Origin: Luminiphilus syltensis NOR5-1B
GTDB lineage: Bacteria > Pseudomonadota > Gammaproteobacteria > Pseudomonadales > Halieaceae
Reading direction: 5' to 3'
DNA: 64,000 nucleotides
NCBI RefSeq assembly: GCF_000158175.1
Contig: NZ_DS999411.1
Span: forward strand, 964,596 to 1,028,595
The first letter of the stretch is position 1; every line of letters starts with the position of its first letter. Below, in pieces: positions 806-4,551 of this stretch. Made by a program: the position numbers and the translations under genes. The notes below the pieces were generated by a model. That model saw only the letters and a program-made list of their open reading frames with translations. It ran no database searches and was not told the origin of the DNA.

Positions 806-2038
806 ATGGGACATCTATTCAATCGCAACATCATCATCGGCGTTACGGGCGGCATTGCCGCCTATAAAAGTGCCGAACTGGTCCGGCTGTTAAGGAAGTC
901 AGGCGCCAGCGTGCGTGTCATCATGACCCGGGGCGCCCAGGAATTTATAACGCCGCTAACCCTGCAGGCGCTTTCAGGAATGCCCGTTCATACCGAACTC
1001 CTTGATGAAGAGGCAGAACTGGGTATGGGGCATATCGAACTGGCACGCTGGGCCGACGCGCTGCTCATAGCCCCGGCGACTGCCGATGTGATTGCGCGAC
1101 TGTGCCATGGACGCGCCGATGACCTACTAACCACTACCGCACTGGCGACACCGGCACCCCGGTTTATCGCCCCCGCCATGAATCAGCAGATGTGGGCTGA
1201 TGCCGCGACCGCCGACAACATCCAACTGCTTCAGCACCGCGGTTTCACTATCGTGGGCCCCGAAGCGGGAGATCAGGCCTGTGGTGATATCGGGCCCGGC
1301 CGTCTGCTCGATCCTGAGGCCATTGTCGAGACCCTTAGCGGGTCGTTTGCCCAGCAGAAGCTGGCGGGGCGGCGGGTTGTCATTACCGCCGGGCCCACGC
1401 GGGAACCCATTGATCCGGTGCGTTTTCTGAGCAACCACAGCTCGGGGAAAATGGGTTACGCACTGGCGAGAGCCGCAATGGAGCAGGGCGCAGAGACGGT
1501 GCTTATCAGTGGCCCGGTGCAACTCACGCCGCCCGATGGGGTTGTCCTCATCAAGGTCGAAACCGCCCAGGAAATGCTTGCCGCCGCCGAGCAACAGGCC
1601 GCGGGTGCTGACGTCTTTATCGGTGCCGCCGCCGTTGCTGATTACCGGCCCGTCGCCTGTGCCGACCAGAAACTGAAAAAGACCGATACGACCGACTGGC
1701 AGCTCCCACTCACCCAGAATCCTGACATCATTGCCAGCGTCGCGCGCCTGGGGCAGCGCCCGAAAATGGTGATTGGTTTCGCCGCGGAAACCGAGCGCGT
1801 GGCCGAGCACGCCCGTAGTAAATTAACCCGCAAAGCGCTTGATCTGGTGATAGCCAACGACGTCTCACGCCCGGATATTGGCTTCAACAGCGATCACAAC
1901 GCAGTACTGCTCGTCGATGTCGAGGGCGATACCGCTCTACCGATGGCGAGTAAGCACGTCGTTGCGCAGCACATCGTGGCCGCTGCCGCAGAGTGGCTGG
2001 CCAAGGGCGATAGAGTGCCGGATAGGGTGTCCTCATGA
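806..2038 (+). CDS. coaBC: bifunctional phosphopantothenoylcysteine decarboxylase / phosphopantothenate-cysteine ligase
   Basis: CoaBC joins 4'-phosphopantothenate to cysteine and then decarboxylates the product, two successive steps of coenzyme A synthesis in the cytoplasm. The N-terminal flavoprotein domain (about residues 1-185) shows GVTGGIAAYKS, the PAMN substrate motif and ACGDIGPGRLLDP containing the active-site cysteine. The C-terminal ligase domain shows ITAGPTREPIDPVRFLSNHSSGKMG and the lysine-rich KLKK nucleotide motif. Length of about 410 residues is typical. A GTG at 800 is an alternative start; neither start has a clear ribosome binding site. The stop overlaps the next ATG by 4 bases (ATGA), so the following AlgC-like gene is probably translationally coupled. 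In pseudomonads dut follows coaBC; here it does not. Confidence 0.96.
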   Translation: MGHLFNRNIIIGVTGGIAAYKSAELVRLLRKSGASVRVIMTRGAQEFITPLTLQALSGMPVHTELLDEEAELGMGHIELARWADALLIAPATADVIARLCHGRADDLLTTTALATPAPRFIAPAMNQQMWADAATADNIQLLQHRGFTIVGPEAGDQACGDIGPGRLLDPEAIVETLSGSFAQQKLAGRRVVITAGPTREPIDPVRFLSNHSSGKMGYALARAAMEQGAETVLISGPVQLTPPDGVVLIKVETAQEMLAAAEQQAAGADVFIGAAAVADYRPVACADQKLKKTDTTDWQLPLTQNPDIIASVARLGQRPKMVIGFAAETERVAEHARSKLTRKALDLVIANDVSRPDIGFNSDHNAVLLVDVEGDTALPMASKHVVAQHIVAAAAEWLAKGDRVPDRVSS

Positions 2039-4551
2039 TCCAGACCGAGCAGCGGGCCAGTGACAAAGCGATAACCGTTGAACGCGACGCCCTGCGACGC
2101 CTGTGTGTAAAGGCACTGCTTCTCGGGCTGCTGCCTGCCTTGATCGTATTGTTATGGATTTTATTGATCCGCGAACCGGGGCTCCAGAGTGGCGCCGCGG
2201 AGCAGCTCGGCTCCACGTTGGCCGGGCAGCGAGCAGGATCGATACACGGGGTGCTGGAGAGTTTCCAGGCCCGTCTGCAGGCGCTATCCCATCGGGTTAA
2301 CGGGGCCGCTGCGGACACTGATTTGAATCCCTCAGATCTCGGCTTCCCCGAAGCCAGCGTGCTCAACATTATCCCCCTCGACGATCGCGGTACGGTCGGG
2401 CTGGATCCGGAATTCTGGGGTATTGAATCCCATGTAGCGATTGACCTTATCCGACAGGCCCAGTCGGGCAATATCAAGCAGATCGAAGCCATAAAACGCG
2501 ATGGGCGATGGCACGTATTGATGGCGCAAGGCTTTGATTTTCGGGGCCGATCGGCAGCGACAGTCGCGCTGCTCTGGATACCGAGCGACCGCTTTGGCGC
2601 GATCCTCAACCAGGGCGAGTCGCTGGGTACCTGGGCTCTGGTGCAGCAACATGGCGGAGGGCCGGAGCAGTTGCTGGCTGGAACAGCCATAACCGGGTCA
2701 GGCACCTACTCCGCGGACGTTAAAAATACCCCCTGGCAGGTACTTTTCAGGCCAGCGGATGCGCTTTTGGATCAGACACGGCCTGGCTCTTTACTGCTGA
2801 TGATCGCGATTGCCGCGGTGCTGGTGTCGGGAGCCGCTGGTGCGTATCTGCTATTGATCGGACTACCGAAAGAAATTGCCAGGGAAGCAAAAAGAATCCT
2901 GGATTTAAGCGGCAACAACCACAACATTGCGTTGCGCGTGCCACAATTACAGCCATTGGCGACACTGCTGTACCAGCTGAACCACCTCAACCGACGCAAG
3001 GTGCGGAGCCCGATGCGGGTGCGATCGGATCATGAGGATGCTGCGTCATCACCCCGCGCCGAGACCACGCCGATGTCAGCATTTTCGACACCACCGGTGG
3101 CTTCCGTGGAAGAAGTGGACGAAGCAACGGATCAGCCTGACACGGAAGCGACTGCAGCAACCCCGGTTCCCGAAGAGGCCACGCCAGAATCGTTTGCATC
3201 CATCATCCGTGCACATGGCATTCGGGGTGAGGTCGATGCGATCATGAATGACGCCACCATGAAACAGCTTGGATTTGGTCTCGCCGACCTCGCGAAAAGC
3301 CACAACATTTCAACGCTTCTGCTGGCAATGGATGCCCGACCGAGCGGTAAGCAACTGCACACCACCCTGGCCCAGGCACTGCTCGCGGGTAACTGCGATA
3401 TTGTCGATCTCGGCACTGTTCCCCTGCCCTTGCTGCACTACGCTACCGCCACAGGAGATGTGGACTCCGGTATTGCCATCACGGGCGCCGGTGCTCCCCG
3501 TTCGGTCAATGGTCTGGACGTAATCATCGCCGGCAACGTGATTGGCAAAGTAGATCTGGACGCACTGCAAGCCTTTGCTTCCGATGAACACAGCGGTGGT
3601 GGCAAGGGTCACTTCACCGGCCGTGACATCAGACACGATTACCTTGATAAAATCGCGGTAGACATCGGCCTGGGTCTGCCCCTGAAACTGGTCGTCGACC
3701 ATCATTTCAGTGCGACATCCCTGGTCGCGAGCGATGTGTTCACCGCCATTGGCTGCGAAGTGATCAGCATCGATGATGCGAATACCGATACGGCACCGGG
3801 CACCGAGTTGACCCTGCAGGAGCGTATTGCCGCTCTTGCGCCACAAGTAACATCCCATGGCGCCGATCTTGGTATCGTCTTCGATGCGGAAGGCGAACAA
3901 ATTCATACGATCACCAATCGTGGCAAACCGGTCCACGCGGAGCACGTATTGGCGCTTCTGGCGCAGGATGTTCTTGAGCGCCACCCGGGAATCGATATAT
4001 TGCACGACCTGCGTGCCAGTCGCACCACCACGCAGCTGCTGGCCAAAGCCGGAGGACGGGTCTTACCCACCGCCAGTAGTAATGCCGTCATGGCTGCATC
4101 CATGCGCGACACCGGCGCACTGATGGGAGGTAGTGCCGATGGCGCTATCTATTTTAACGACCGATGGTACGGAACGGCGGATGGCATCTACGCCGCATCG
4201 CGTTTGCTCGAACTGCTGGGCAGCTCACCAAGCAGCTACGATGATCTGATCAACGACTTACCGAGGATCTCCCCCCAACTATCGGCGAACCTCGCTTGCA
4301 GTGACGAAGACAACAGGAAGCTTTTCGCCGCCTTGTCTCGTCATACTGGGCTCGCAGAATCACGCCTGACAATGAAGGACGGACTTCGCGCCGATTTTCA
4401 CGATGGATGGATCGCCGTTACGCAGAAACGCGCCGAAACCGGGCTCATCGTTACGGTTGAGGCGAATGATGAAGCGGGCCTTGAGCGGCTAGCTGGAAAA
4501 ATCACGGCGATACTCAGCGATATCGAGCCGAGGTTTGCTTTAAACTTCTGA
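2035..4551 (+). CDS. membrane-anchored AlgC-like protein with degenerate phosphohexomutase active site
   Basis: The 838-residue protein has two parts. The N-terminal part has membrane segments at about 27-45 and 252-275 enclosing a region of about 200 residues, probably periplasmic, then a Pro/Glu/Thr-rich linker (about 335-385). The C-terminal part (about 387-838) follows AlgC phosphomannomutase/phosphoglucomutase throughout, for example DDGIYSAARLLE in AlgC against [12 protein letters not shown] here. All four functional loops are altered: the phosphoserine loop TGSHNP is TGAGAP (483-488), the metal loop DGDGDR is DAEGEQ (617-622), the sugar loop GEMSGH is lost (GALMGG, 694-699), and the phosphate loop RASNTTP is replaced (about 796-803). 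RAYDIRG is RAHGIRG. Catalysis is therefore unlikely; a sensing, scaffolding or regulatory role is inference. It sits between coaBC and argB, the normal algC position. Some pseudomonad AlgC proteins also carry an N-terminal extension. Confidence 0.85.

Follow-up and report, generated by a model that had tools for sequence, protein, structure and literature searches.

We analyzed a 64,000-nucleotide stretch of the Luminiphilus syltensis NOR5-1B genome (contig NZ_DS999411.1, positions 964,596 to 1,028,595; hereafter, the window), in which a single unbroken 838-codon frame with an ATG start lies between coaBC and argB. Sequence comparison establishes that its product, here called pseudo-AlgC, is a pseudoenzyme that descends from a membrane-anchored AlgC and that selection maintains in congeners. 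AlgC-type phosphomannomutase/phosphoglucomutase (PMM/PGM; P. aeruginosa, PDB 1k35, 4il8 and others) shares its fold, domain order and membrane half. We give roughly equal weight for and against the proposal that this tethered AlgC stopped catalyzing and became a non-catalytic transmembrane regulator that uses the old cleft.

Residues 384–820 of the window protein align with residues 7–445 of P. aeruginosa PMM/PGM (best chain 5.2e-68, one two-residue gap), and the alignment revealed five changed loops, as an initial annotation made from the letters alone had claimed. TGSHNP of loop 1 becomes TGAGAP (residues 483–488), the metal loop DGDGDR becomes DAEGEQ (617–622), KTGH becomes ASSN (680–683), the sugar loop GEMSGH becomes GSADGA (699–704; the aligned PDB chain itself reads GEMSGA), and RASNTT of the phosphate loop becomes TQKRAE (796–801). 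S700 and D702 replace the sugar-loop Glu and Ser, and the RxSNT positions are occupied by T796, K798, R799 and A800. The roles of four loops follow an excerpt of PMC6443537, with residue numbers carried over through the PMM/PGM alignment and the roles of single residues taken in part from general knowledge.

The reference for these changes was a set of 172 intact-motif homologues (77 from the same family, 15 from the order and 80 from named genomes, some of them probably duplicate organisms). At least 95% invariance across this set defines 109 domain columns, 20 in the active site and 89 elsewhere. The window protein retains two of the 20 active-site invariants (R20 and D242) versus 58 of the 89 others (Fisher p 7.2e-6). 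S108, H109, K118, the three metal aspartates, R247, K285, G307, H308, E325 and H329 are identical in all 172 active-type proteins; in the same order, the window protein has A, G, D, D/E/E, Q, R, S, N, S and A. The AlgC type differs from pseudo-AlgC in keeping the catalytic serine throughout (172/172), whereas in the latter this serine has been exchanged along with almost every ligand residue. The excess of changes in the active site over the remaining domain is significant (0.05) in 13 of the 18 members of the window's genus that carry the gene, the exceptions being G050, G032, G039, G009 and G002. Judged by sequence, it is the active site that has been selectively lost, and a dead mutase is strongly supported. 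Metal binding appears to be altered and not plainly abolished: the DGDGDR to DAEGEQ change noted in the initial annotation is real, but D, E and E leave the site acidic.

The four-domain mutase fold is recognizable in the window protein from Pfam, the PDB sequence match and an AlphaFold model. PGM_PMM domains I, II and III score above the Pfam cut-off and domain IV is not detected; NF046027, the NCBIfam model for AlgC/PgmG equivalogs, gives 203.1 bits and so falls short of its cut-off of 600. The AlphaFold model (mean predicted local distance difference test, pLDDT, 83.2; predicted template modeling score 0.65) runs from a first transmembrane (TM) helix through a long helix and a mixed α/β domain to a second TM helix, which continues into a helix-strand-helix element, a low-confidence linker and the mutase domain, where pLDDT is mostly 83–97 with one dip to 52. 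Because 52 active homologues made up the input alignment together with the window protein, the model shows only that the sequence fits the mutase fold.

Searching the genus (57 genomes, counting the source genome) with the N-terminal half as query found the gene in 18, among them 10 of the 17 genomes that are at least 90% complete. None of the 18 carriers has the Ser-His pair of the catalytic loop, and 17 have no serine at the corresponding column in any of three alignments. Seventeen have open frames of 803–841 codons from stop to stop, and the remaining one is cut by a contig end. A pseudogene or sequencing artefact confined to one genome, for which the loop changes and nothing beyond could be cited, is therefore extremely improbable: the same state recurs in 18 assemblies, and the ratio of nonsynonymous to synonymous substitution rates (dN/dS) lies far below 1 among congeners. 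The argument of the initial annotation against decay holds on the same grounds as regards simple decay, and the gene is neither misread nor restricted to one genome; the low dN/dS was measured in pairs of congeners and not in the window's own species.

The carriers form a graded series. In seven, the metal loop (DxDGDR) persists together with the K118 equivalent and GDxxGH, and these same seven have fixed the new loops TGGHG (GGHG) and SRSGQ; five, including the window protein, are altered further; six are without nearly every motif, and their Pfam matches are limited to domain III plus, in five of them, a weak domain I. The metal-binding trio is D, D, D in the subgroup of seven and D, E, E in the window protein. 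These acidic residues, together with the K118 equivalent and the sugar-loop GH of the seven and a serine beside the old site in a few carriers, could speak for residual catalysis, whether a different residue does the work or the remaining metal site supports a phosphatase or lyase reaction. We regard this as improbable, because the superfamily mechanism proceeds through the phosphoserine (as given in an excerpt of PMC6443537), whereas the Ser-His pair is missing in 18 of 18 carriers and the window copy is left with so little of its active site.

Outside the genus, the homologues examined have intact motifs. A family search with a cut-off of E 1e-50 matched 92 of 131 genomes, of which 15 belong to the window's genus, and the 77 others were fetched; all 77 retain SH, DGD(G/A)D and, in the KTGH loop, GH. 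Carriers G028, G031 and G054 themselves miss the 1e-50 cut-off, so similarly divergent dead forms elsewhere would escape this search. Motifs are also intact in the 15 order-level loci examined and in the 80 best loci from a scan of 583 relatives among named genomes, which may omit near records and in which there is no recognizable member of the genus. With one order-level sequence as its root, a tree built from 110 domains joins the 18 dead domains in one clade with support 1.0, and their mean root-to-tip distance is 2.44 versus 1.26 for other family members. The coaBC-X-argB arrangement is common to the dead forms and to the three active family genomes read, and all 18 carriers have two membrane segments by hydropathy about 200 residues apart. 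Descent from AlgC follows from the shared locus and the single clade among the family's AlgC domains. Most simply, catalysis would have been lost once at the stem of the genus and fast evolution would have followed. Horizontal replacement was considered and set aside because the gene tree is largely congruent with the species tree, except for the placement of G005/G040, which has weak support in the species tree. One locus holds a graded series from active AlgC in other genera through serine-less forms with metal aspartates to nearly motif-free ones, a series that allows one to trace how a bacterial pseudoenzyme arose and was repeatedly lost.

The source genome supplies mutases by other means, as the initial annotation had predicted for a true phosphohexomutase. 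It encodes intact-motif GlmM (446 amino acids), CpsG-type phosphomannomutase (450 amino acids; TASHNP, KTGH and RSSNT) and a Pgm-type mutase, named by motifs and recognition. The CpsG-type gene occurs in 47 of the 57 genus genomes, in all 17 that are at least 90% complete (one as a partial match), and in the four same-family genera sampled; it was not found in carriers G019 (75% complete) and G032 (78% complete). From this distribution we infer that the tethered AlgC was probably redundant before it changed.

These elements suggest a path to a regulator. AlgC of this order would combine a mutase with a sensor-like module in the periplasm; CpsG-type phosphomannomutase and Pgm would supply sugar phosphates, leaving the tethered copy free to lose catalysis. 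Its cleft may then bind a ligand without turnover, be it a hexose phosphate or a protein partner (the active mutase, for example), and the outer domain would set or read this binding via the second membrane helix and the helical linker. A wider claim is that, among pseudoenzymes of the phosphohexomutase superfamily, pseudo-AlgC is the first bacterial one to serve as a transmembrane sugar-phosphate receptor, with a true sensor in its membrane half, a signal-controlled AlgC as ancestor and a mutase turned into a binding or signaling module; we consider this doubtful, and the receptor role itself is an inference.

The regulator proposal draws its support from the stronger constraint on the dead domain than on the membrane half. 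Pairwise dN/dS by the Nei-Gojobori method was available for seven pairs with a synonymous distance (dS) below 2, six of them among four genomes and the seventh G008/G028, so that two sub-clades are represented, both of them under purifying selection. Ratios are 0.03–0.12 for the dead domain and 0.08–0.24 for the membrane half, with the dead domain more constrained in seven of seven pairs. For the whole gene, five pairs give 0.05–0.17, compared with 0.09–0.13 for coaBC and 0.02–0.06 for argB (a sixth pair is saturated for pseudo-AlgC), and in four of these five pairs coaBC is under weaker constraint than pseudo-AlgC.

The two-TM architecture is older than the loss of catalysis. The initial annotation had described two membrane segments with a domain between them, and hydropathy places the segments at residues 27–45 and 257–275, with a domain of about 205 residues between them. 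Its further view of the protein as a receptor whose cytoplasmic module is a dead enzyme is borne out in part: the two-TM layout is in keeping with it, but also occurs in 132 of 134 long active homologues, where two hydrophobic segments 170–290 residues apart precede the domain. Named genomes contribute 50 of 51 long frames to this count, the family 67 of 68 and the order 15 of 15, and some organisms are present in more than one set. By sequence, the layout is a property of AlgC in this order and not peculiar to the dead protein, and the finding draws notice to a membrane half that is common there. Long membrane-anchored AlgC frames occur in Pseudomonas, Marinobacter and Halieaceae, and the P. 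aeruginosa algC frame has 868 residues; 28 of the 80 named loci have frames below 600 amino acids (Halomonas, P. putida and others). In genus g58 (L237, L238, L242 and L232), some intact-motif members have frames of only 478–510 amino acids, from which the membrane half is seemingly absent, a course opposite to that of the window's genus. AlgC frames in genus g42 (L234, L236 and L239) are about 1000 amino acids long, above most in the family.

Two-TM receptors with a periplasmic Cache domain and a HAMP linker are a known class, and pseudo-AlgC is like them in layout and predicted secondary structure. It differs from them in that the window protein has no Cache or HAMP match in Pfam and its output domain has the mutase fold. 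A membrane-half profile run against the PDB returned only chance matches to tropomyosin.

Several results weigh against the regulator proposal. Cache matches are weak (a scan of 53 members gave dCache_1 in 7, best E 0.0052, and another set gave it in 3 of 36, among other weak matches), and HAMP is absent among the Pfam families listed (25 of 49, and 25 of 26 in the second set); the case for a sensor role of the membrane half is weak. Within the subgroup of seven, active-site columns are invariant in 17 of 22 cases versus 280 of 421 others (p 0.36), and loop-window columns in 38 of 54 versus 259 of 389 (p 0.64); because the loops show no greater conservation than the remaining columns, the odds of a regulator that uses the cleft are lowered. 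In G008/G028, pseudo-AlgC is less constrained than coaBC (0.17 versus 0.09). The best full-length matches of the window protein are 33–35% identical to it, so the dN/dS values cover congeners only, and across the genus both halves are 17–36% identical to the window protein versus 75–82% for full-length ArgB. The six nearly motif-free carriers are unrecognized at Pfam domain II. G054 has a serine at the catalytic column in two of three alignments, within VVSRDQ, which is otherwise unlike the motif. The gene is also frequently missing: the N-half query found no match in 39 of the 57 genomes, including 7 of the 17 nearly complete ones. In 23 of 24 inspected absentees, coaBC and argB are adjacent, 115–381 bases apart, and the 24th ends at a contig edge. 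On a coaBC plus argB tree of 44 genomes, the gene must have been lost independently five times or more, provided it was never regained, which makes it dispensable.

Much of this would suit a passenger, kept in a gene that is selected for its membrane and outer half, whose mutase-like domain survives as a fold that must not unfold and is on its way out. Repeated deletion, stepwise motif loss up to the six-member sub-clade, fast divergence and cleft loops conserved no better than the remaining domain all agree with it, and the short active homologues of g58 show that the halves can separate. Against it stands the constraint seen in the two sub-clades with usable pairs, where the dead domain is held more tightly than the N-terminal half. 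We regard the passenger as the main rival to the regulator, possible though on balance unlikely.

The repeated clean deletion of the gene within the genus had been missed by the initial annotation. G056 carries an in-frame internal deletion of about 2 kilobases that leaves a 130-codon frame, with flanks 96–98% identical to G031, and in G049 the central part of the gene is gone, with flanks 93–98% identical to G028. By this comparison, some deletions are recent. Genome reduction has been described for this lineage in an excerpt of PMC3679898.

The nearest precedent for the proposed change is vertebrate PGM5 (aciculin), likewise a phosphohexomutase relative without mutase activity. An excerpt of PMC7761743 presents human PGM5 as a structural muscle protein lacking mutase activity and reports that herring PGM5 retains the phosphoserine and binds glucose 1-phosphate. 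Pseudo-AlgC is unlike PGM5 in being bacterial and membrane-anchored and in having lost the serine. A search by title and abstract, which left subscription papers mostly outside, found no paper on a bacterial pseudo-phosphohexomutase and none on the AlgC membrane half.

Table 1 Features of the pseudo-AlgC locus, in window positions.
Feature	Positions	Strand	Basis
Whole gene, membrane-anchored pseudo-AlgC, 838 amino acids	2035..4551	+	Open reading frame, Pfam, PDB match
Membrane segment 1, residues 27–45	2113..2169	+	Hydropathy; helix 17–45 in model
Inter-membrane domain (46–251), presumed periplasmic, putatively Cache-like by topology	2170..2787	+	Model; no dCache_1 in window protein
Membrane segment 2, residues 257–275	2803..2859	+	Hydropathy; helix 252–292 in model
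Putative HAMP-like helix-strand-helix (276–318), from layout only	2860..2988	+	Model
Linker (319–383), mostly low confidence	2989..3183	+	pLDDT <50 at 317–339 and 343–377
Phosphohexomutase-like domain (384–838)	3184..4548	+	Pfam PGM_PMM I–III, PDB match, model
Former phosphoserine loop TGAGAP (S108 to A485, H109 to G486)	3481..3498	+	Alignments
Former metal loop DAEGEQ	3883..3900	+	Alignments
Former KTGH loop ASSN	4072..4083	+	Alignments
Former sugar loop GSADGA	4129..4146	+	Alignments
Former phosphate loop TQKRAE	4420..4437	+	Alignments
coaBC	800..2038	+	Stop overlaps pseudo-AlgC start; named by recognition, without family scan
argB, next downstream gene	4583..5473	+	Named by recognition, without family scan

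The stop codon of coaBC and the start of pseudo-AlgC share four bases (ATGA), in line with the intact frame coupled to coaBC of the initial annotation, and argB starts 31 bases past the pseudo-AlgC end. The coaBC stop overlaps a possible ATG, GTG or TTG start of pseudo-AlgC in 13 of the 18 carriers, which suggests coupled translation; in G008, G028, G005, G040 and G002 the frame does not start at the coaBC stop. Guanine-plus-cytosine content per codon position is similar to that of neighboring genes, and a promoter and terminator scan of window positions 600–6000 found no excess over shuffles. Lysines and arginines flank the membrane segments on the predicted cytoplasmic side, four before segment 1 and four after segment 2.

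In G040 (98% complete), the argB beside pseudo-AlgC is cut to about codons 1–36 and 261–293 (L078, 6165–6379), and the sole other argB match of this genome, located elsewhere, is 30% identical.

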